Below are positions 2,716 to 55,690 of a DNA stretch of 64,000 nucleotides, piece by piece (within the stretch, counting starts at the first letter, position 1; every line of letters starts with the position of its first letter). The DNA is taken from positions 1-64,000 of the forward strand of contig JAHJCO010000002.1 of the NCBI GenBank assembly GCA_018831265.1. The letters are read 5' to 3'. This DNA comes from Actinomycetota bacterium (lineage in GTDB: Bacteria > Actinomycetota > Geothermincolia > Fen-727 > Anoxymicrobiaceae). Made by a program: the position numbers and the translations under genes. The notes under the pieces were generated by a model. It was given only the letters and a program-made list of their open reading frames with translations, was not told where the DNA came from and ran no database searches.

Positions 2716-2766
2716 GGTAACTCCCGTCAGACGATGTAACGCCAACTGTCTAGATTGATAATACAC

Positions 2767-2847
2767 AGGGGCGTCAGACAATTGCACGCGTTAACTCCAA
2801 TCGCAGTGTTGATCAGAATCGAGCACGTGCAAGTGTCTGACCCCCCG
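2767..2847 (-). repeat. dispersed palindromic repeat, family A, copy 1
   Basis: Family A is an about 95-nt near-palindrome. It starts with GGGGGTCAGACACTTGCACG and ends with GCGTGAAATTGTCTGACGCC followed by CCT, so the two ends are imperfect inverted repeats. This copy is in minus orientation. It lacks the outer GATCAACCCATGGACGAAC flank seen in most other copies. It lies between the start regions of the divergent DUF39 and membrane-protein genes. Confidence 0.9.
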
Positions 2848-2883
2848 ATTACCTGGAATCGTCAAAAAGACGACGACAACTGG

Positions 2884-7004: not shown

Positions 7005-8567
7005 ATGGAAAGAAAGTTCCGGGTAGCCGTCTTCTCCCCCAACGATCCCCGTCCATGGGTGCGCGCGGAGAACCTGGACTTCATGCTCGAGTACGAGTCG
7101 CACCTGGTGGACGCTCTCACCGGCCTGGGCTACGAGGTCGTGCGCGGCGGCGAGGGCCAGCCCCGTGAGGACCGGATAGCCTGGAGCACCCGCCTGGTCC
7201 ACGAACACGTGAGCCACCTGGCCCGGGCCGAGCCTGGGATGCTGGTGGTCAACCAGGGCTCCTGGACCTTCCCCTACGACTCCATCGACGCGGTCAAGCT
7301 CCTCGCCCGGCTCACCGGTGAGCCGCCGCGCGTGGTGATGTTCTGCTACAAGGACACGAGGGTGCCGGGCCTGGTGGCGGGGATGAGCGCGGGGGGAGGG
7401 CTCAAGCGCATCGGCGTCCCGTTCACGACCTGCTACGGGAAGATAGACCAGGACCCCGAGGCGGTGAAACGGCTCGGGCAGGCCGTGGAGTTCTACAGGG
7501 AGCGCTGGGAGGCCGCGCCGCTCGCGGAGGACGCCGTCAGGCGTCTCGCCTTCCAGAAGTACCTGGCCCTCGGCGGGATGTCACTCAAGATGGCGACCAC
7601 CACCGCGGACGTTGACCAGTGGCAGAAGCTGTTCGGCGTCTCATACGAGGCGCTCGACCAGTCGGTGCTCTCCGAGAGGGCCTCGCGCATGGTTTCCTGG
7701 GAAGGCGTGCCCGGCGACAGCTCCTTCCAGGTGGAGGACGGTCGCGTGGCGGCGGCCGAGCGCTTCCTGGTCGAGGAAGGGCACGGGGTCTTCGATTTCG
7801 AGATCGAGACCACCACCAGCCTGGAGAAGCTGGTCCTCCAGCTCGCGCTCTACTACGCCGCCCTCGACCTGGTCGATGAGCTGGGTGTGACCTTCGCCGG
7901 CATCAAGTGCCAGGACGAGCTCTCTTCGACCCTCTGCACCGCGTGCCCGGCGGCCGCCTTCCTGAACAACGACGTGGGGCCGGACGGCGAGCCCAAGCCT
8001 ATAATCCCCGTCGCCTGCGAGAACGACATGGACTCGGCCCTCTCGCAGATGATGCTGTACCTGGTGTCCGGCAGGCCGTCTGCGTTCGGTGACTTCAGGG
8101 ACGTCGAGAACTCGGTGCTGGCGGTGGTGAACTGCGGCCAGCACCCGCCTCACTTCTTCGGAGAGCCCGACGAGGACCCGGTCGCCAAGCTGGATCGCAC
8201 CGAGTACCCCGGCCAGGAGCACTTCTACCCCGCCGGCGGCTGCGCGGTCAGGGGCCGGACGCCGGGAGGGCTCTGGGTCACCGTAGCGCGCCTCGGCAGG
8301 CAGAACCTGCGCTACCAGATGGTTGCCACGGTCGTTCAGACCGTCAACGTGGAGCCGACGGAGCACGAGCTATATACCCGCTCGTGGCCTATCCTCAAAG
8401 GCCGGGTCCCCATGACCGACGACACGCTTATTGACGCCTGGCCATCCAACCACCTGGCGTTCGCCTTCGGCGACTGGACCGCCGCGCTCGCGGAACTCGC
8501 CCACAGGCTGGACATCGGATACAGGATCTGGGACCGAAGTGGTCGTCACTATTTCAAGCCGGAGTAA
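7005..8567 (+). CDS. L-fucose/L-arabinose isomerase family protein
   Basis: A 520-residue protein of the FucI/AraA-like isomerase family, which converts aldoses to ketoses with a divalent metal. Likely metal ligands are the Glu in KCQDELSS, the Asp in CENDMDSAL and the late His in PSNHLAF. An N-terminal substrate-domain motif, NQGSWTFPYD, is also visible. Somewhat shorter than E. coli FucI (about 590), as in many uncharacterised members. The ATG starts 2 nt after the upstream dehydrogenase stop. Next downstream is a rhamnulokinase-like kinase beyond a repeat. Together they suggest 6-deoxyhexose or pentose catabolism. The exact sugar cannot be told by reading. Confidence 0.85.
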   Translation: MERKFRVAVFSPNDPRPWVRAENLDFMLEYESHLVDALTGLGYEVVRGGEGQPREDRIAWSTRLVHEHVSHLARAEPGMLVVNQGSWTFPYDSIDAVKLLARLTGEPPRVVMFCYKDTRVPGLVAGMSAGGGLKRIGVPFTTCYGKIDQDPEAVKRLGQAVEFYRERWEAAPLAEDAVRRLAFQKYLALGGMSLKMATTTADVDQWQKLFGVSYEALDQSVLSERASRMVSWEGVPGDSSFQVEDGRVAAAERFLVEEGHGVFDFEIETTTSLEKLVLQLALYYAALDLVDELGVTFAGIKCQDELSSTLCTACPAAAFLNNDVGPDGEPKPIIPVACENDMDSALSQMMLYLVSGRPSAFGDFRDVENSVLAVVNCGQHPPHFFGEPDEDPVAKLDRTEYPGQEHFYPAGGCAVRGRTPGGLWVTVARLGRQNLRYQMVATVVQTVNVEPTEHELYTRSWPILKGRVPMTDDTLIDAWPSNHLAFAFGDWTAALAELAHRLDIGYRIWDRSGRHYFKPE

Positions 8568-8588
8568 CCCAATTCATTCGTCCCCGTC

Positions 8589-8773
8589 GATCAACCCATG
8601 GACGAACGGGGGGTCAGACGCTCGCACGCGCTCAATTCCCATCAGTTCACGTGGCCGTGGACCGACCCTTGGACGATCTGGGGGGTCAGACACTTGCACG
8701 CGTTCACACCCGTCGATACAGGGATCGGAGATAACGCGTGAAATTGTCTGACGCCCCTCTGTTCTTTCCTCCT
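8589..8773 (+). repeat. family A repeat, copy 2, with duplicated left arm
   Basis: The left arm (GATCAACCCATGGACGAAC plus GGGGGGTCAGAC) appears once at 8589 and again, degraded, from about 8669. One right arm follows, GCGTGAAATTGTCTGACGCC, ending CCTCTGTTCTTTCCTCCT. This last extension is shared only with copy 3. The right arm supplies a GGAG box and the GTG used by the following kinase gene. Confidence 0.9.
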
Positions 8774-10240
8774 GACGCCTCCCATTACCTCGCCTTCGAC
8801 CTCGGGGCCGGGAGCTGCAGGGCCACCCTGGGTGCGCTCTCCGACGGCCGACTCTCTCTCCGTGAGATATCCAGGTTCACGAACAGGCCGATGCGGGTTC
8901 GGAGCAGCATCCACTGGGACGTCTACGCCCTGCTCGCGGGCATGAAGGACGCGATGGGCACGCTCGCCGACGAGGGGACGGCCCCCGACAGCGCGTCGGT
9001 TGACACCTGGGGAGTGGACTTCGCCCTCCTGGGCGGCGACGGCCGCTTCCTGGTCAGACCTCACTGCTACAGGGACCCCCGTACGCGGGGTGTCGTCGAG
9101 GAGATCCTCGCGCATATCCCGCGCGAGAGGCTCTATGAGCTCACCGGCATACAGCCCGAGCGGTTCAATACCCTCTTCCAGCTCTGCGCCTTCAAGCGGA
9201 GCCAGCCCGGGGTCCTCGCCAAAACGGCTTCGCTGCTCTTCATGCCGGACGTCTTCAACTTCCTGCTGGGGACGGGAAAGGCCACGGAGCTTACCATCGC
9301 CAGCACCTCCCAGCTCTACGATCCGCGCGGGCGCTGCTGGGTCCCCGAGCTGCTTGAAATGGTGGGCCTGGACCCCGGCGCCATGCAGCCCGTCGTCCAG
9401 CCCGGGATGATGCTGGGCCTGGTCTCCGGCGAGGCCGGCATGCCGCTTGCCGGCACTCCCCTGGTGGCCTGCGCCAGTCACGACACGGCCAGCGCTGTCG
9501 CCGCTGTCCCGGCTGCGGGCGACGACTGGTGCTTCATCAGCGTCGGCACGTGGTCCCTGATGGGCATCGAGGTACCCGAGCCCCTGGTAGACTCCCGGTG
9601 CCTGGACGCCGGGTTCAGCAACGAGGCCGGTGTCGCGGGGACGTTCCGGTTCCTCAAGAACCTGAACGGGTTGTGGCTCCTCTCGCGCTGCATCCAGGCG
9701 TGGGACCCCGCCGGCGGGCTCACCTACTCGCAGGTCGAACGGGAGGCGTGCGATTCAGAGTCTTTCGGGCCCCTGATAGACCCCCGGGACGAAATGTTCT
9801 TCGACCCGGCGGACATGGCCGCGGCCATACGCACTTTCTGCGAGGACACCGGGCAGACGCCTCCGGACGGCGCCGGGGGCACGGCGCGCTGCGTGCTCGA
9901 GAGCCTGGCGCTGCTGTACGGCGAGACGTTGGAGCTGCTGCGCTCCGTCACCGGCCGCCGCCTGTGTCTCATCCACCTGGTCGGAGGCGGCAGCCGGAGC
10001 CCCCTGCTCTGCTCCCTGGTCGCCGACGCCTGCGGGGTCCCTGTAGTGGCGGGCCCCGTCGAGGCCGCCTCGGCGGGGAACGTCCTCATCCAGGCGATAG
10101 CCGGTGACAGGGTGTCCGGCCTTGCCGAGGCCAGGCGGATATCCGCCGCGTCGTTCGACCTCGTCGAGTACGAGCCTTCCGGCGATCCGCGCTGGGAGGA
10201 GGCCAGGCATAGATTCGCCAACCTGTCACGTACCCGTTGA
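8738..10240 (+). CDS. rhamnulokinase-like FGGY carbohydrate kinase
   Basis: A 500-residue FGGY sugar kinase, closest by motif to rhamnulokinase. Motifs are YLAFDLGAGSCR (phosphate 1), VDTWGVDFALL, HCYRDPRT, FNTLFQL, MPDVFNFLLGTG, TIASTSQLYD, CASHDTASAV and ISVGTWSLMG. It phosphorylates a ketose made by the isomerase upstream. The only start with a ribosome site is the GTG at 8738 (GGAG, 7 nt away), and both lie inside a family A repeat. The protein would therefore begin with repeat-encoded residues MKLSDAPLFFPPDASHY. No later ATG or GTG precedes the conserved core. A second direct copy of the repeat follows the stop at once. Confidence 0.87.
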   Translation: MKLSDAPLFFPPDASHYLAFDLGAGSCRATLGALSDGRLSLREISRFTNRPMRVRSSIHWDVYALLAGMKDAMGTLADEGTAPDSASVDTWGVDFALLGGDGRFLVRPHCYRDPRTRGVVEEILAHIPRERLYELTGIQPERFNTLFQLCAFKRSQPGVLAKTASLLFMPDVFNFLLGTGKATELTIASTSQLYDPRGRCWVPELLEMVGLDPGAMQPVVQPGMMLGLVSGEAGMPLAGTPLVACASHDTASAVAAVPAAGDDWCFISVGTWSLMGIEVPEPLVDSRCLDAGFSNEAGVAGTFRFLKNLNGLWLLSRCIQAWDPAGGLTYSQVEREACDSESFGPLIDPRDEMFFDPADMAAAIRTFCEDTGQTPPDGAGGTARCVLESLALLYGETLELLRSVTGRRLCLIHLVGGGSRSPLLCSLVADACGVPVVAGPVEAASAGNVLIQAIAGDRVSGLAEARRISAASFDLVEYEPSGDPRWEEARHRFANLSRTR

Positions 10241-10425
10241 TCAACCCATGGACGAACCGGGGGGTCAGACACTTGCACGCACTCAATTCCCGTCAGGTCA
10301 CGTACCCGTTGATCAACCCATGGACGAACCAGGGGGTCAGACACTTGCACGCACTCAATTCCCGTCAACACTGTGATTGGAGTCAATGCGTGAAATTGTC
10401 TGACGCCCTTCTGTTCTTTCCTCCT
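10239..10425 (+). repeat. family A repeat, copy 3, with duplicated left arm
   Basis: Directly repeats copy 2 on the other side of the kinase gene. Two nearly identical left arms begin at 10239 and 10313, then a single right arm ends with the same TCTGTTCTTTCCTCCT extension. The first bases overlap the kinase stop codon. The MKLSDA frame here stops after 14 codons. Confidence 0.92.
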
Positions 10426-10461: not shown

Positions 10462-11748
10462 ATGAGCGCTGACGTCATAGTCATTGGTGCGGGATACGCC
10501 GGGCTCACCGCGGCGGCGATACTCGCGCACAACGGAGTCGAGGTCCAGGTCTTCGAGTCGACCGGACACCTGGGAGGGCGAGCAACCTTCGACCGCAAGG
10601 ACGGTTTCCTGGTGGACTACGGCATCCACGCCAACCGCCTGGCCGGTGAGGGCGCCGCGGCGGCGGCGCTCAGGGAGATCGGCTACGAGATAGACTTCGT
10701 CGAGATGGGAGAAGGGCTCCTGTGGTGGGAAGGGTCCTTCGTGCCCCTGCCGACCGACGTGCCCGGAATGCTGAAGACAAAGCTCCTCTCCGCATCCGAC
10801 AAGACCATCATGGTCGCCGACCTGGCGCGCCTCGTCCTGGCCAACCCCGTCAGCAAGGCGGACGTCCCCCTGCACGACATGGTCTGGGGCGCCGACCGCC
10901 CCAGGATGGCCATGTTGTTCAAGGTGCTGGCCGGCATATGCCTGGTCTGCCCCGACGCCCGGACGGTGAGCGCGGGGGACTTCGCGGCGTTCCTCAAGCG
11001 CGCGCTGAAGGCCAAGGAGAACGTGGGATTCCCCCGGGGAGGCACCAGCCAGATAGTAGAGGCCCTTTCGAGCAAGGTCGAGGAGAACGGCTCCTTCAGT
11101 CTGAACACCCGGGTCAAGGACATCAAGGTCGAAAAGGGCAGCGTCGTCTCGGTCGAAGCGAAATCCGAGATATCCAAAGCAAGGGCGTACGTGTACGCCG
11201 CGCCCCTTCAGAAGCTTTCGGCTATCGCGGAGGGCCTTACCCAGGACTTCACGGCTCGATGTGACTCCATCGTCCCCACCGCCGGGATCAGCATCGACCT
11301 CTGCCTCAGCGAGAAGGTCAGCGACATCGACGGCCTGATCGTCACCCCGGACCCGGTCACCATGGGGCAGTTCACCTCGAACATCGACCCCACCACCGCG
11401 CCCGAGTCCAAGCAGCTCGCGACCTTCTACTACCCCCTGCCCGTCGAGACGATGGACGACAGGGACAGGGTAGAGGCCGAGGAGAAGCGCTTCCGGGGGT
11501 TGCTGGAGGACATGTTCCCCGGGATCATGAGCAAGATCGAGTGGGAGCGCGCGCTCCACCTGAAGATGGTTGACGGCTTCGAGCCGCGCGTGGGGCAGAC
11601 CTCCAAGGACCGGCCCGGTGTTGCCGTTCCCTCCGCACGCAACCTGTTCCTGGCGGGAGACTCCGTGAGCGCGATCGGCTCGGGCGGGGACGTCGCCTTC
11701 AACTCCGCCGTGGAGGCCGCCCACAGCGTGCTGGCCTTTCTCAAGTAG
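10462..11748 (+). CDS. FAD-dependent amine oxidase/phytoene desaturase-like oxidoreductase
   Basis: A 428-residue flavoprotein. The N-terminal dinucleotide-binding motif VIGAGYAGLTAA is followed by an acidic ribose-binding residue (VFESTGHLGGRA). The C-terminal FAD motif NLFLAGDSVSAIGSGGDVAF is typical of the NAD(P)-binding_8/amino-oxidase superfamily that includes phytoene desaturases, CrtI-like enzymes and protoporphyrinogen oxidase. AGGAGG precedes the ATG, and TATAAT lies just after repeat copy 3. It is first in a run of four tightly spaced genes leading into the methyltransferase/GH57/GT4 trio. Substrate unknown. A carotenoid role is possible but unsupported by neighbours. Confidence 0.8.
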   Translation: MSADVIVIGAGYAGLTAAAILAHNGVEVQVFESTGHLGGRATFDRKDGFLVDYGIHANRLAGEGAAAAALREIGYEIDFVEMGEGLLWWEGSFVPLPTDVPGMLKTKLLSASDKTIMVADLARLVLANPVSKADVPLHDMVWGADRPRMAMLFKVLAGICLVCPDARTVSAGDFAAFLKRALKAKENVGFPRGGTSQIVEALSSKVEENGSFSLNTRVKDIKVEKGSVVSVEAKSEISKARAYVYAAPLQKLSAIAEGLTQDFTARCDSIVPTAGISIDLCLSEKVSDIDGLIVTPDPVTMGQFTSNIDPTTAPESKQLATFYYPLPVETMDDRDRVEAEEKRFRGLLEDMFPGIMSKIEWERALHLKMVDGFEPRVGQTSKDRPGVAVPSARNLFLAGDSVSAIGSGGDVAFNSAVEAAHSVLAFLK

Positions 11749-15448: not shown

Positions 15449-16279
15449 ATGGGAAGAAAACCTCGAGAGGAAGTACCGGACGCAATATATCACCTGAACA
15501 GCAAGGGTGTATTCGAGACGGATATCTTCCTTGACGATAGCGATCGTCTTCTTTTCCTGCGTTATCTGTCGGCCTGCGTCAAACGCATGAAGTGGATATG
15601 TCATGCTTACTGCTTGATGACAACGCATTACCACCTTCTGATCCAGGCACCCGAGGCGAATATCGCTGACGGCATGTGTTACCTGAACGGGAACTATGCC
15701 AGGAGGTTCAACCAGCGTCATGGCCGAACGGGTCACCTGATGCAGGAGAGGTACTATCCCAGAATAATCGACACAGAACCATACCTCTTCACGGTAATAA
15801 GGTACATGGCACAGAACCCGCTGAGTGCCGGGTTGGTCCGGGAACCCATCGATTGGCCGTGGTGCAACTGCCTAGCGACCGCCGGCGGGCAACCTGCTCC
15901 ACGCTTCCTGGAGACCTCCTTCACACTTGCGTTATTCTCGAACGATACTGTTGCCGCGCAGAAGGAATACAAGGAACTAATTCGAATCCCCATCGACCCG
16001 GGATTTGACAAGATCCCCGATGAGCACCAGCTCCCTGACTTCGAGATCCCTGGTAGCGAGCAATCAATAGACCCGTCGTGCAATCCATCCCCGTCATTGG
16101 CAGAACTGTTCTCCTCTTGTGCCAGCATGGAAGATAGGAATTCACTAGTGGCGACCGCGTTCTTGGACCATGCTTACAAGACAACAGAGATCGCCAGATT
16201 CCTGAGTATTTCACAGGGGCGGGTCAGTCAGATCATCAGCCAGGAACGTGTAGCCAGAGAAGACTCGCAAGGTTCTTGA
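15449..16279 (+). CDS. REP-associated tyrosine transposase (Y1_Tnp)
   Basis: A 276-residue protein with an HUH motif, TTHYHLLI, near residue 60 and the catalytic-Tyr region RYMAQNPLSAGLV near residue 125, as in Y1 transposases. The C-terminus (FLDHAYKTTEIARFLSISQ) forms a helix-turn-helix, as often seen in the longer RAYTs. ATG 15449 gives the usual MGRKPREEVPDAIYH N-terminus. All catalytic residues appear present, so it may be active. It acts on single-stranded DNA. Lower GC and codon use differ from the neighbours, consistent with horizontal origin. Confidence 0.9.
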   Translation: MGRKPREEVPDAIYHLNSKGVFETDIFLDDSDRLLFLRYLSACVKRMKWICHAYCLMTTHYHLLIQAPEANIADGMCYLNGNYARRFNQRHGRTGHLMQERYYPRIIDTEPYLFTVIRYMAQNPLSAGLVREPIDWPWCNCLATAGGQPAPRFLETSFTLALFSNDTVAAQKEYKELIRIPIDPGFDKIPDEHQLPDFEIPGSEQSIDPSCNPSPSLAELFSSCASMEDRNSLVATAFLDHAYKTTEIARFLSISQGRVSQIISQERVAREDSQGS

Positions 16280-19650: not shown

Positions 19651-19702
19651 CTTCCCTCTCTGGTAGGACACGCCCCAAAATGATACCAGAGCGTAAACAT
19701 AC

Positions 19703-19803
19703 AGGGGCGTCAGACAATTTCACGTGTAGACTCCAATCTCAGTGTTTACGGGAGTTGAGCGCGTGCAAGTGTCTGACCCCCCGGATCGTCCAAGGGTTGA
19801 TCA
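19703..19803 (-). repeat. family A repeat, copy 4
   Basis: Full-length minus-orientation copy, from AGGGGCGTCAGACAATTTCA at its left end to GGGTTGATC at its right. The MKLSDAP frame opens towards the methyltransferase gene but in a different frame, so no fusion results. Confidence 0.9.
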
Positions 19804-19815
19804 ACCGCAACGCAA

Positions 19816-28343: not shown

Positions 28344-28390
28344 ATGCAAAACTCAACGCGTGAAATTGACACATCAGAGTTTTGCTCGTC

Positions 28391-28491
28391 GATCAACCCA
28401 TGGACGAACCGGGGGGTCAGACACTTGCACGCGCTCAATTCCCGTCAACGCTTTGATTGGAGTCCACGCGTGAAATTGTCCGACGCCCCTC
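28391..28491 (+). repeat. family A repeat, copy 5
   Basis: Full plus-orientation copy from GATCAACCCATGGACGAACC to GTGAAATTGTCCGACGCCCC. It reaches the 3' end of the epimerase gene, which it overlaps by about 2 nt. Confidence 0.92.
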
Positions 28492-29569
28492 AAGGTATGT
28501 ATCGGTTTTCCCGGTACCACGCGACGGTGGCAGGCCAGCCGTCGGCGAAGGTCGGGTACCTCGGGCTCCAGCCCAGCGACTTGAGGCGATCGTTGGCGTA
28601 GCGGTGCTCTCCGTAGAGAAAGCCCAGAAAATCCCGGTCGATCCTGGGGGAGAGCAGCGGGACCAGGTCGTGCTCGAACGCGATCGAGTCCCAGCGCCCG
28701 GCCAGGAACTCGTTCAACGCCCGGATAAGCCTCATGGGCGTGTGGGAGGCCACCCGGGCGACTGCCTCGATCGCGGACCACGGCAGGGCGACCTCCGGGG
28801 CGCACTCTATTCCGAAAGGCTCCATCACCCGGCGGATGAGCTCCGAGCCTGTCATCACCGAGTCGTCCGCCACGTTAAACGCGCGGCCTCCGGGTCCGGG
28901 GCCCGCCTCGAGGACCGCACACGTGGCCTCGGCCAGGTCCTCGACGTGTACGGTGTTTATCTGGGGGCCCCCTGCCGGAAGCGGGATACGGTCCGCGTAC
29001 CTCTTCAGGAGGGTCGGCAGTACCATGAACGACCTGGCCGTATATACCGCCCCGGGCCCGTACACGAAGGTGGGCCTGATGATGGACACGGGCAGGCCCT
29101 CCTGCCACATGACCCCCAACGCCGTCAGCTCGCTGAGGTACTTCGAGATGCTGTAGGCGCAGTCGGGGCGCTTCGACTCATCCTCGGTGATCGGGCTTCG
29201 CCGCTTGAGACCGTAGACGTCGCAGGTCGAGTACTGGATGAAGTGCCCGGCTCCCTTCCGCGCGGCCGCCAGGGCGAGGCTGCGTGTGCTGCCGACGTTT
29301 ATCGACTCTATGACCTCGCGGGTAAGGCTCAGGTCGAAGGCGGCTGCGATGTGGATGACCATGTCGCAGCCTTCGACCAGAGAGCGGCAGAAGTGGTGGC
29401 GCATGAGGTCGCCCTGCTCGACGACGGCCCCCAGTTCGGCGGCGTAGGTCAGGTCGACGGCCGGCAGGTCCGTCGCCTTAACGGAGTATCCGCGCTCGGT
29501 GAGAAGCCTCACCACGTAGCGGCCCACAAATCCGCCGGCGCCGGTGACCAGCACGGTCTTCTCAGGCAC
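28490..29569 (-). CDS. NAD-dependent epimerase/dehydratase (extended SDR)
   Basis: A 359-residue extended short-chain dehydrogenase. The N-terminal NAD motif is VTGAGGFVGRYV. The catalytic segment runs QYSTCDVYG to CAYSISKYLSE (Ser, then YxxxK), followed by RPTFVYGPG. It resembles NAD-sugar epimerases and 3-beta-hydroxysteroid dehydrogenase-like proteins. The substrate cannot be read. It overlaps the upstream membrane-protein gene by 8 nt, so the two are coupled. Its 3' end reaches family A repeat copy 5. Confidence 0.85.
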   Translation of the reverse strand: MPEKTVLVTGAGGFVGRYVVRLLTERGYSVKATDLPAVDLTYAAELGAVVEQGDLMRHHFCRSLVEGCDMVIHIAAAFDLSLTREVIESINVGSTRSLALAAARKGAGHFIQYSTCDVYGLKRRSPITEDESKRPDCAYSISKYLSELTALGVMWQEGLPVSIIRPTFVYGPGAVYTARSFMVLPTLLKRYADRIPLPAGGPQINTVHVEDLAEATCAVLEAGPGPGGRAFNVADDSVMTGSELIRRVMEPFGIECAPEVALPWSAIEAVARVASHTPMRLIRALNEFLAGRWDSIAFEHDLVPLLSPRIDRDFLGFLYGEHRYANDRLKSLGWSPRYPTFADGWPATVAWYRENRYIP

Positions 29570-36260: not shown

Positions 36261-37583
36261 TCAGTCGTGGTCCCCCCTCGCCTCAAGGCGTAGCCTGAAG
36301 TACAGCGAAAGGAAACTTGCGGTGAGCTCCTTGAGCCTGGTCAGCAGCGATTGCGCTTCTGGTTGCGAGTCGGTATCAGACTCTATCGTTATTTTAAGCG
36401 ACCTTGCAAGCCGCGTCACCTCCGCGTACCCGGCGGCCAGCGGCTCGAGCTCCGCGGGGTCCAGGTACAGCGCCCTCGCGTAGAGATAAGGCAACCTGCG
36501 CCACGCGTAATCCAGGAAGGTGCGGATCTTCTCGGGCTCCCACACCTTCACCCCTATCCGCCAGGTGATCGGCATCTTCTCGAGCCCGAAACCCACTATT
36601 CGCGCGTTGGAGACCTGGCGCCTGATCTCGCCCAGGAGGGTCTCGACCTGCGCCGTGGCTGCCGTGGGGTTCAAGCCATGGGGAGGGGTCGTCGACGGCG
36701 CGCGCCCTGACGGCGCCCCCGTATCTGCCGGGGCCTCCTTGAGGTGCCGCAGCAACAGCTCCGCGAGCAGCGTGTTGGCCCCGACGAAGAGCGGGTGCTC
36801 CAGGTGCGGTCCCGAGGCCACCGCGGTCCCCCCGCCGAGCGATGCGCTCACGACGGCCCGCCTGCCCTCCAGCAACCTTTCCGCCTCGTCACGGGGCCAG
36901 AGGAAGGCGGCGCGGTCCGACACCCCCGTGAAATCAGCCACCGAGCTCATCGAGGCGATCACCGGGCCCCCGAACAGCGGGGCCTTGATGTCCCCGCTGG
37001 CGAAACACTCGAACCCGCGGCCCTCGATACCTGGACCCAGCACCACCTCTCCGTAGACCGGGTGGAAGACCCAGTCCGGGCCGTACGGCGCCAGGTACTT
37101 GTGCTCGAGGCACCGGGGCTCCGGCGGCGAGCCCATGACGTTGACCATCTCCCCGTCCACCAGGGCAAAGGGAGTGAAGGGCGGGCGGTCGACCCCCCGG
37201 AGCACCAGGTAACCTCCGGCGCAGGAGCCGTGATAGAAACCCCCCGATCTGACGAATCCCTCCAGGGCCCCGGCACCACCCGGTCCCATCCCCTCCGCCA
37301 TGGCGTAGGTGTCGCCGCCACCTACCATAAGGACGCCGAACCTCGATAGCCCCTCCGTCGTCACCTCTTCCTCGGTCACGAAGGCGATATCGTGGAGGCC
37401 GAGGCGCTCCAGCAGGTCGGCGAACCACATCCAGGAATGAGATGCTCCCGCGCCCACGTACACGGCAACCGAGGGGTAGGCGTCACCGGCGGCCTCAAAC
37501 GCCCTCCGGTATCGCAGGTACGCCGGGTCGGCCGCGGCGCGGCCGAGCCTGCCTCCACCGTGAGGGGCGTCAGACAATTTCAC
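36261..37583 (-). CDS. BPL_N/class I amidotransferase-like protein
   Basis: A 440-residue protein. The N-terminal about 300 residues resemble the biotin-ligase N-terminal (BPL_N) or class I glutamine-amidotransferase-like fold. Motifs are LMVGGGDTYAMAEG, a nucleophile elbow FYHGSCAGGYLVL with Cys, and later HPLFVGANTLLAELLLRHL. A Pro/Thr-rich linker and a helical C-terminal region follow. Function unknown; it could hydrolyse or sense a peptide or nucleotide. No ordinary start lies near the conserved region. The frame runs back into family A repeat copy 6, whose GTG at 37583 (GGGG, 7 nt away) would give MKLSDAPHGG. It precedes hdrA by 25 nt. Confidence 0.65.
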   Translation of the reverse strand: MKLSDAPHGGGRLGRAAADPAYLRYRRAFEAAGDAYPSVAVYVGAGASHSWMWFADLLERLGLHDIAFVTEEEVTTEGLSRFGVLMVGGGDTYAMAEGMGPGGAGALEGFVRSGGFYHGSCAGGYLVLRGVDRPPFTPFALVDGEMVNVMGSPPEPRCLEHKYLAPYGPDWVFHPVYGEVVLGPGIEGRGFECFASGDIKAPLFGGPVIASMSSVADFTGVSDRAAFLWPRDEAERLLEGRRAVVSASLGGGTAVASGPHLEHPLFVGANTLLAELLLRHLKEAPADTGAPSGRAPSTTPPHGLNPTAATAQVETLLGEIRRQVSNARIVGFGLEKMPITWRIGVKVWEPEKIRTFLDYAWRRLPYLYARALYLDPAELEPLAAGYAEVTRLARSLKITIESDTDSQPEAQSLLTRLKELTASFLSLYFRLRLEARGDHD

Positions 37584-37662
37584 GCGTTGACCCCAATCGC
37601 AGTGTTGACGGGAATTGAGCGCGTGCAAGTGTCTGACCCCCCGCTTCGTCCAAGGGTTGATC
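37563..37662 (-). repeat. family A repeat, copy 6
   Basis: Full minus-orientation copy from AGGGGCGTCAGACAATTTCA to GGGTTGATC. Its GTG codon lies in frame with the following BPL_N-like gene. Confidence 0.92.
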
Positions 37663-37695
37663 TACGAGCACTCGTGGAGGTTTCACGCGCTTGGC

Positions 37696-50415: not shown

Positions 50416-51156
50416 TTGGCAAACAAGCGGATCGAGCTCGAGCAGTACAAGTACTATATCGACCTGCTGGTCGAGGATCCGGCGCGCAAGAAGGCGCGCA
50501 GGGGCGTGGCCACCCTGTTGATCGCTGCGATGGTGATGTCCCTGGCGTTCTTCGTGCTGGGGTTCCTCTCCAACGATACCGCCGGCAGCCTGACCGACAT
50601 CATGCAGAAACCCCCCGCCAAGGCTCCGGCCGGCGACACCCAGGTACCGCAGCAGCAGCTCCCCGAGGGGATACCGCAGATACCGCAGCAGCAGCTCCCC
50701 GAGGGGATACCGCCGATACCGCAGCAGCAGCTCCCCGAGGGGATACCGCCGATACCGAGCGAGACCGAGCAGCCGCAGGTCCCTGTCAGCCCGTCACCAG
50801 GCAGCCGTCTGCCGGCGACTGACGCGATAGCGATGCCGTTCGACGCGCCCGACGGAGCGTTACTGGCACGCGCCCAGGCGGCGCCCGGCCAGGAGACGAC
50901 ACCCACGGTGGACATCCCGGCCGTCGACGAGAGCGCGCCCGACTCCACGGCGCCGGGTTCCTCCGCACCGACCTCCTCCGCGCCCAAGAAGACGGGCCCG
51001 GGAACGACCACCAGGGGAGCGGCCAGCCTCTCAAAGCTCGCGACCTCGGCCGGCGGCAGGGGATTCGAGATCTACCTGCTGGCCGTCTTCTTCGTGCTGA
51101 TGATCGCGCTGTACGTGGCGCTTCGCCGCGTCCGCCTGGAGGCAAAGGCGAAATGA
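50416..51156 (+). CDS. two-membrane-segment protein with Pro/Gln-rich repeats
   Basis: A 246-residue protein with a cytosolic N-terminus (basic residues), a membrane segment near residue 35 (LLIAAMVMSLAFFVLGFL), and an about 150-residue low-complexity extracellular stretch. The latter contains three 12-residue repeats based on PQQQLPEGIPPI and a Ser/Ala/Thr/Pro-rich part. A second membrane segment, IYLLAVFFVLMIALYVALRR, follows. TTG start with a G-rich site. Its stop overlaps the next gene by 4 nt. Family not recognised; the layout suggests an envelope spacer or scaffold. Confidence 0.7.
   Translation: MANKRIELEQYKYYIDLLVEDPARKKARRGVATLLIAAMVMSLAFFVLGFLSNDTAGSLTDIMQKPPAKAPAGDTQVPQQQLPEGIPQIPQQQLPEGIPPIPQQQLPEGIPPIPSETEQPQVPVSPSPGSRLPATDAIAMPFDAPDGALLARAQAAPGQETTPTVDIPAVDESAPDSTAPGSSAPTSSAPKKTGPGTTTRGAASLSKLATSAGGRGFEIYLLAVFFVLMIALYVALRRVRLEAKAK
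50647..50754 (+). repeat. three tandem 36-bp coding repeats
   Basis: Three nearly identical 36-bp units starting CCGCAGCAGCAGCTCCCCGA encode PQQQLPEGIPPI-type repeats. The near-identity suggests recent expansion by slippage or recombination. Confidence 0.92.
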
Positions 51157-52861: not shown

Positions 52862-53014
52862 GATGTGCATATTATAATGTTGAAGGCAAGGCATACCCCA
52901 CCTGTAAAGAACGCGGCGGTCCGGACGTCTTGAGGAATAAGCAACGAGAAAGCAACGGGACCCGGCGAAAGAACATCACTAGGGCGCGTAAGAGCGCTCG
53001 GGGAGGTGGTTGGC

Positions 53015-55444
53015 ATGAAGTCAAAGGTGATCGAGATCGTATCCGCCGTCCTGGTCTTGCTGCTGCTGCCGCTCATCGCGGCGGTACCGGCGGCGGCGGA
53101 CATGGGGCCCTGGGCTCAGGTGAACACCGACGGCTTCGGGAACCCGGGAAGCAACCAGCCCCTGTCCAGCGCGATCTACAAGAGCGACCTGTACGTCGGC
53201 GCAGACGATACCCCCGCGGGCTGCGCGGTCTGGCGCTGGAACGCGTCCACCTGGACCAGGGTCAACGCGGCGGGCTTTGGTGACGTGAACAACTCGCACG
53301 TCATGTCCATGGCCGAGCTCGGCGGCTTCCTCTACGCCGGGACCTGGAACGGCGTCACCGGCTGCGAGCTGTGGAGGACCGCGGGCGTGGGCGGCCCGCC
53401 GTTCACAGACTGGACCAGGGTCAACGCGCCGGGGTTCGGCGACGCGGCCAACTTTGTCGCCTTCAGCCTGGCGGCTTACGGCAACTTCCTCTACGTCGGC
53501 ACCACGAACTTCGGGACCGGGTGCGAGGTCTGGAGGAGCGCCTGCACCGGCGCGGTGCCGTTCGCGGACTGGATGCAGGTGAACACGGACGGCTTCGGCG
53601 ACGCAGGCAACGCCTCGGCTAACAGCATGACGGTCTTCAACTCCCGGCTGCACGTCGCCACCAGCAACGGCACAACCGGGGCCGAGATCTGGGTCACAGC
53701 CGCTGCGGGCGGCCCGCCCTTCACCGACTGGGCGCAGGTCAACGCCGACGGCTTCGGCGCCGCGGTGAACGGTGGAGTCGAGAGCATGGTGGTTAAAGGC
53801 TCCTACCTGTACGCCGCGGTAGGCGACTACTGGGGAGCCAACGTCTCGCGCGTCTTCAGGAGCACCGGGACCGGCGGTCCGCCGTACACCGACTGGGTGC
53901 AGGTCAACGCCGACGACTTTGGCGACCCCAGTAACTGGGGCTGCGTCTCCCTGGAGACAGACGGATCATACCTGTACGCAGGGACGTGGAACACCACCAC
54001 TGGCTGCCAGGTATGGCGCAGCGCGTGCTCCGGCGGCCCCCCGTTCACAGACTGGACCAAGGTGAACACGGATGGTTTCGGCGATGCGGGCAACACCGGC
54101 ATCTGGAGCATGGCGTTCTATAACGACAACCTCTTCGCGCTCGCGGAGAACGGCGCCTCGGGCGCCGAGGTCTGGAGGAACGACACCGTCTACCCCACGT
54201 GGTACCTCGCCGAGGGCAGCACCGCCTGGGGCTTCGACGAGTACATCTCCATAGAGAACCCGAACGGCATCCCGGTCAACGCGACCGTCACCTACATGAC
54301 GACGGGCGGCCCTGTGCCCGGCCCCAACGTGGCACTTCCAGCGCTCTCTCAGGCGACGGTCGAGCCGCGGGCCGTTCTGGGTGACCAGGACTTCTCGACG
54401 AGGGTGACCTGCGTCGAGGGGCTGGACATAGCTGTAGACCGCACCATGAGCTGGACGGGCCCGGGGGCGGTCTCGCCCGAGGGGCACAACAGCGTGGGGG
54501 TGACGGCGCCCTCCACCAACTGGTACCTGCCGGAGGGCTCCAGCGAGTGGGGCTTCGAGTGCTGGCTGCTCATACAGAACCCCAACGGGGTGCAGGCCAA
54601 CTGCCAGGTGACCTACATGATCGAGGGGGCTCCGGCACAGACGTTCACGAAGCAGGTGCCGGCCAACGCCAGGAGCACCTACGACATGGCAGACGATATC
54701 GGGCCCAGGGACGCCTCAATAATGGTGGAATCGGACGTACCCGTCATCCCGGAGCGCGCGATGTACCGCAACGACAGGCGCGAGGGTCACGACTCCATCG
54801 GGACGACTCAGACCGCGTCGGACTACTTCCTGGCCGAGGGGGCCACCGCCTGGGGGTTCACCACCTACGTGCTGGTGCAGAATCCCAACCCGAGCGAGGT
54901 CACGGTCAACATGACCTTCATGACGTCCGGCGGCCCGTACGAGTACGATCCTTTCACGATGCCCGCCAACTCGCGAAGGACGATACGCCTTGACGACATC
55001 GGGCCGGTGTCCAACACGGACCTCTCGACCCGCGTTCACGGGAGCCTGCCTATAATCGCCGAGCGTGCCATGTACTGGGACTACGGCCTCGGGGAGGCGT
55101 GCCACGATTCGATAGGTATGAACTCACCTCACGGCAGGTTCCTCCTGCCCGACGGCCAGTCCACGGACGGGCGCGAGACCTGGACCCTTGTACAGAACCC
55201 CAACAGCGTGGATGTAAACGTGATGATAGGTTACCTGAGCCCGACGGGCACCGGTAACGTCGTGATAAACGACACTGTGCCCGCGAACTCGCGCAAGACC
55301 TACAACATGGCCGACAACTTCCAGGGGCGCGGCTCTATCGTCGTGCTCAGTGCCACCACGAACATGAGAATAATGGTGGAGCGCGCCATGTACTGGAATG
55401 ACCGGGGAGCCGGCACGGACACGATCGGAGGCTACAGCAACTAG
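53015..55444 (+). CDS. secreted beta-propeller-like protein with four C-terminal ERAMYW repeats
   Basis: An 809-residue exported protein. The signal peptide is MKSKVIEIVSAVLVLLLLPL with cleavage near AVPAAADM. Residues 30-390 contain about seven repeats of 50-60 residues, each with VNxDGFGD, LYxGT and GCEVWR-type motifs, suggesting a beta-propeller. Residues 395-809 hold four repeats of about 105 residues built on WGFxxYxxIQNPN, PAxSRxTY and ERAMYWND-HDSIG. The latter resemble the actinobacterial DUF5719-type repeats of cell-surface proteins. ATG 53015 follows GGGAGG with 8-nt spacing. Likely surface-bound or released; ligand unknown. A terminator follows. Confidence 0.85.
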   Translation: MKSKVIEIVSAVLVLLLLPLIAAVPAAADMGPWAQVNTDGFGNPGSNQPLSSAIYKSDLYVGADDTPAGCAVWRWNASTWTRVNAAGFGDVNNSHVMSMAELGGFLYAGTWNGVTGCELWRTAGVGGPPFTDWTRVNAPGFGDAANFVAFSLAAYGNFLYVGTTNFGTGCEVWRSACTGAVPFADWMQVNTDGFGDAGNASANSMTVFNSRLHVATSNGTTGAEIWVTAAAGGPPFTDWAQVNADGFGAAVNGGVESMVVKGSYLYAAVGDYWGANVSRVFRSTGTGGPPYTDWVQVNADDFGDPSNWGCVSLETDGSYLYAGTWNTTTGCQVWRSACSGGPPFTDWTKVNTDGFGDAGNTGIWSMAFYNDNLFALAENGASGAEVWRNDTVYPTWYLAEGSTAWGFDEYISIENPNGIPVNATVTYMTTGGPVPGPNVALPALSQATVEPRAVLGDQDFSTRVTCVEGLDIAVDRTMSWTGPGAVSPEGHNSVGVTAPSTNWYLPEGSSEWGFECWLLIQNPNGVQANCQVTYMIEGAPAQTFTKQVPANARSTYDMADDIGPRDASIMVESDVPVIPERAMYRNDRREGHDSIGTTQTASDYFLAEGATAWGFTTYVLVQNPNPSEVTVNMTFMTSGGPYEYDPFTMPANSRRTIRLDDIGPVSNTDLSTRVHGSLPIIAERAMYWDYGLGEACHDSIGMNSPHGRFLLPDGQSTDGRETWTLVQNPNSVDVNVMIGYLSPTGTGNVVINDTVPANSRKTYNMADNFQGRGSIVVLSATTNMRIMVERAMYWNDRGAGTDTIGGYSN

Positions 55445-55493: not shown

Positions 55494-55551
55494 CCGTTCT
55501 TCTGCAGCCGTCCGTAGCGTCAAAGATGAGATTGGCAACCCGAAAAGAGTG

Positions 55552-55650
55552 AGGGGCGTCAGACACTTTCACGCGTGGACCCCAATCGCGGTGTCTATGG
55601 GAATCGAGCGCGTTCAAGTTTCTGACCCCCCGGTTCGTCCAGGGGTTAGT
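55552..55650 (-). repeat. family A repeat, copy 7
   Basis: Minus-orientation copy, somewhat diverged (AGGGGCGTCAGACACTTTCA at one end, CCGGTTCGTCCAGGGGTTAG at the other). Its GTG frame reads MKVSDAPHSF and meets no gene. Confidence 0.9.
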
Positions 55651-55690
55651 CGAGCACATCTCTAGATGCTTCCTCTTAGCAGGCGCGGAT

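Follow-up and report, generated by a model that had tools for sequence, protein, structure and literature searches.

A dispersed REPIN-like repeat most likely supplies the start codon of a rhamnulokinase-family kinase gene

Results

The kinase gene and its surroundings

The window (the whole stretch of 64,000 nucleotides analysed) contains, on the plus strand, an open reading frame of 500 amino acids (8738-10240), with a GTG start and a TGA stop at 10238-10240. It is preceded by an L-fucose-isomerase-like gene (7005-8567) and followed by an amine-oxidase-type FAD gene (10462-11748). The product exceeds the Pfam cut-offs for both FGGY_N and FGGY_C. Its best profile match, from residue 18, is TIGR02627 (NCBIfam rhamnulokinase), with 412.9 bits against an equivalog cut-off of 527.95 bits; the assignment is therefore made at family level only, as a rhamnulokinase-family FGGY kinase.

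The 170-nt gap between isomerase and kinase consists almost wholly of a repeat, here called family A, whose unit is an imperfect palindrome of about 110 nt. A partial unit is followed by a full one, and the right arm of the latter overlaps the 5' end of the kinase. The kinase stop codon also falls within a copy, so that both start and stop codons lie in repeat DNA. No Rfam match close to thresholds was found around the kinase. The relevant features of the window are the following.

2755-2851, minus strand: counterexample, a family A copy sharing the frame of the HcyBio gene; further downstream this gene still has its native start, GTG 2715
8586-8644, plus strand: partial family A unit, directly 5' of the full unit
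8657-8770, plus strand: full family A unit, right arm over the kinase 5' end
8680-8704, plus strand: hairpin left arm
8727-8730, plus strand: GGAG, Shine-Dalgarno-like
8733-8757, plus strand: hairpin right arm, containing the GTG
8738-8740, plus strand: GTG, probable kinase start codon
8768-8773, plus strand: CCTCCT, place of the start codon in homologues; final 6 nt common to the downstream copy
10229-10425, plus strand: second compound family A copy (partial and full), 3' of the kinase and including its stop
19690-19805, minus strand: family A copy without a gene start
28388-28498, plus strand: family A copy without a gene start
36261-37583, minus strand: BPL_N-domain gene, second apparent repeat-derived start
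37557-37665, minus strand: family A copy whose right arm holds the only start of gene 36261-37583
55539-55653, minus strand: family A copy without a gene start

The start of the kinase frame

The initial annotation had described, in the right arm of the repeat, a GGAG followed after 7 nt by a GTG that opens the kinase frame with MKLSDAP, and had found no later ATG or GTG before the conserved YLAFDLGAG core. Both observations were confirmed. The GGAG is followed by ATAACGC, the GTG and then AAATTGTCTGACGCCCCT, and the frame is closed upstream by an in-frame TAA (8732-8734). The codons from the start are GTG AAA TTG TCT GAC GCC CCT CTG TTC TTT CCT CCT GAC GCC TCC CAT TAC CTC GCC TTC GAC; read one by one between GTG 8738 and the core, they include no ATG or GTG, and TTG 8744 and CTG 8759 are the sole other candidates.

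The position of the native start was inferred from the spacing observed in the family, by using 95 kinase homologues, 31-49% identical to the product. In 92 of them an ATG or GTG is found 4 to 16 codons before the Asp of the DLGA motif, and in 51 the first ATG lies at 9 or 10 codons, the two modes of the distribution. In the kinase under study the nearest GTG is 20 codons before this Asp, and the codons at 9 and 10 are CCT CCT, at the right edge of the repeat. The native start appears to have been lost and replaced by the GTG of the repeat. Since no start codon is present at the expected place, 9-10 codons ahead of the DLGA Asp, family A most likely supplies both the start codon and the ribosome-binding site of the kinase, as judged from these comparisons.

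Translation might instead start at TTG 8744 or at the near-cognate CTG 8759, both in frame, and the latter, 13 codons before the Asp, falls inside the range of the homologues. However, these codons are 13 and 28 nt away from the GGAG, with no closer purine box, and CTG starts are rare. We consider this reading unlikely; as the two codons lie in the repeat or at its end, the start would still be repeat-derived.

Copies and distribution of family A

Family A copies were read from the stretches surrounding genome matches. The stretches examined contain 61 non-overlapping model matches, the genome search gave 55-60 placements, and the consensus established by aligning 33 copies is GTnGATCAACCCnTGGACGAACCGGGGGGTCAGACACTTGCACGCGCTCAATTCCCGTCAACACTTCGATTGGAGTCAACGCGTGAAATTGTCTGACGCCCCTC. 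The family was absent from 38 other genomes, including 30 others of the same class, and a search of viral contigs with a 17-nt core produced five matches only, all due to chance and in unrelated DNA. Nearly all copies are intergenic, and many lie within a few bases of a gene end, according to approximate gene calls made by a codon-score caller written for this analysis. Some are arranged in tandem arrays, and several are found at contig ends.

The box-spacer-GTG layout, which the initial annotation had also seen in further copies, is indeed widespread: among 43 well-scoring right arms, GTG is present in 36, GGAG at the kinase spacing in 26, and GGAG-7-GTG or GGAG-7-ATG in 23.

Two other types of repeats were noticed within the window. 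At 50645-50757 there are three direct repeats of 36 nt that are about 98% alike; the called gene 53006-55444 contains, at 53251-54138, a tandem array with units of about 159 nt that are 60-72% alike.

Folding of the repeat

The arms of family A covary: both partners have changed in 7 of the 20 pairs, and 98.6% of cells are paired. On four of the five measures, pair count included, no shuffle among 500 did equally well, and slid controls reached at most 57% of cells paired. The columns of the start codon change together with their partners in the left arm (GCG/CGC, ATG/CAT), so that the pairing is kept and the codon is not. The conserved property of family A is the hairpin, rather than the start codon. 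Lying in and beside the hairpin, GGAG and GTG are for that reason conserved to the same degree as the remainder of the unit.

The predicted fold of the kinase copy has an energy of -45 kcal/mol, against a mean of -32 for shuffles. In the predicted RNA structure the GTG is paired within an 8-bp helix, which should hinder initiation, and the GG of GGAG is also paired. This conservation pattern and the buried GTG are what a structural mobile repeat would be expected to show.

A strong predicted hairpin over the only start, together with the missing native start, could indicate that the insertion abolished initiation and that the kinase is barely translated, or not at all, as an incipient pseudogene. 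The 500 open codons, the good codon score (107) and the two intact FGGY domains argue against such decay, which we regard as very unlikely.

Genes at other right arms

In order to be open into a family A arm, a gene must be in the GTG frame, because frames +1 and +2 contain TGA (gTGAaattgtcTGAc) and the GTG frame alone is free of stops. Fifty right arms were examined, and 24 of them are followed by a gene on the same strand; 11 of these genes are in the GTG frame, against about 8 expected by chance, and four are open: the kinase, 37583 (minus strand), 2787 (minus strand) and L071, where the codon is ACG. Two are apparent sole starts, one (2787) is a spurious extension and one (L071) is a non-start.

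The BPL_N-domain gene, starting at 37583, has no later usual start near its N-terminus, and in five relatives the start codon aligns with codon 9 of this gene, at the end of the repeat; this is the second apparent repeat-derived start. The HcyBio gene has retained GTG 2715 at the position of the relatives' start. On the opposite strand the left arm also carries a GTG; no gene was found to depend clearly on it, although a few coding scores were positive (for example those of L075 and the 2755 copy). In the L053:2036 region, the family A GTG opens a frame of 12 codons, possibly a coupled leader, that ends in a TAA overlapping with the following gene's ATG (TTAATGG).

The initial annotation had proposed that the repeat replaced or donated the kinase start as a portable initiation module. 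The supply of start codon and ribosome site is supported by the missing native start; the module is not supported. A selected, portable signal that provides genes with a ribosome site and a start codon, perhaps gated by the hairpin, would account for the layout shared by over half of the well-scoring arms and for two window genes apparently depending on an arm. It is nevertheless highly improbable: only 2 of the 50 arms are sole starts, the in-frame genes barely exceed chance and just four are open, the start-codon columns vary so as to preserve the pairing, and the GTG is buried in the predicted hairpin. We give an equally small chance to family A being a mobile hairpin-gated start, whose ribosome site and GTG would be exposed when the hairpin melts through upstream translation, temperature or an RNA-binding protein; if this were true, genes hit by family A would acquire regulated translation.

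The two copies bracketing the kinase

The region 8579-10425 places the kinase between two related direct repeats of about 195 nt, about 84% identical, and the gene could be deleted or duplicated if these repeats recombined with each other. Beyond the end of the unit, the bracketing copies continue to match (14 of 14 nt) in a 3' flank, TGTTCTTTCCTCCT, that ends exactly at 8773. Among 1,225 pairs of copies only one other, a tandem pair, equals this match. The shared flank fits with copying from the downstream copy over the native kinase start, the direction being the one that we infer.

At the isomerase locus of seven relatives the kinase was not adjacent and no empty site was seen. This adjacency, not seen in relatives, and the copies at contig ends, which indicate that the repeat troubles assembly, might be taken as signs that contigs were misjoined at the repeats around the kinase. 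Yet the window lies inside a 284-kb contig, the bracketing copies differ by about 16% and are hence distinguishable, and gene 36261-37583 shows the same pattern independently, which makes an assembly artefact extremely improbable.

Discussion

Family A resembles REPINs, REP doublets forming hairpins, as these are presented in the part of Bertels and Rainey 2011 (PMC3116915) considered here. Its two short palindromic arms, inverted and separated by a spacer, can form a single long hairpin, compensatory changes are found, copies are dispersed in extragenic positions and in tandem clusters, and RAYT-type transposases are present, with 13 Y1_Tnp matches in the genome, one in the window (15542-15814, plus strand) and 12 at other loci. 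Unlike REPINs as described there, no copy lies beside a RAYT gene, and the GGAG-7-GTG is apparently used by two genes. A profile or motif scan of each of the 13 Y1_Tnp matches found no family A copy near any of them, in an assembly that is 94.8% complete and may miss the cognate locus. As no RAYT locus carries family A, the repeat is classified with REPINs only in the sense that it works like them. The sequence family itself has no description in the portion of the REPIN literature covered (PMC3116915).

At least three RAYT loci carry GTCA-type repeats of their own, L087 (GGGGTCAAACCT...), L088 (GGGGTCAGGC...) and L260 (GGTGTCAGACATTTGAATC...), the last of which resembles the family A arm; several REP families probably coexist in the genome. 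Two more repeat families, GGGGTCAAACCTG... and GGGGTCAGGCA..., were noticed adjoining family A copies and flanking RAYT genes (L069, L081, L057, L073, L087, L088).

Other classes share some of these features. Like bacterial MITEs, as exemplified by the account of MITEAba12 considered here (PMC6382973), family A is small, non-autonomous and dispersed, with inverted ends; it differs from them by its long inner pairing and its asymmetric conserved left extension. Like the GTAG-/CGTC-tagged repeats (PMC3733652), it is a short palindrome near or overlapping gene ends. According to the sections of that survey considered, repeats inside ORFs favour the predicted N-terminus over the C-terminus, and many N-terminal cases are suggested to be extragenic repeats, with the real start downstream. 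The copy at 2787 corresponds to this situation, whereas 8738 and 37583 lack a usual downstream start near the N-terminus. The literature searched contained no direct precedent for a start codon provided by a repeat.

The kinase start is probably best explained as an accidental capture of a start codon at a REPIN-like insertion, rather than by a purpose-built movable start signal. A compound family A copy would have settled between the L-fucose-isomerase-like gene and the kinase, its right end covering the site of the original start. The native codon would have gone, and the GGAG-7nt-GTG of the repeat, by chance in the kinase frame, would now be used, adding about 8-12 residues (MKLSDAPLFFPP) ahead of the conserved core. 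This order of insertion, initiation at GTG 8738 and the spread of family A by RAYT-type transposases are all put forward here as presumed steps. The same capture appears to have occurred at gene 36261-37583. Both genes would then count as survivors, since the loss of a start to a repeat is tolerated only where the repeat leaves another that can be read.

Under this explanation, the kinase would offer a clean, testable instance of a dispersed REP-like repeat rewriting the first codons of a gene, and the same window provides a second example (37583) and a counterexample (2787). These cases also carry a warning for gene callers: a start within a repeat may be genuine, where no downstream start exists, or spurious, as at 2787, where the native start is at 2715.
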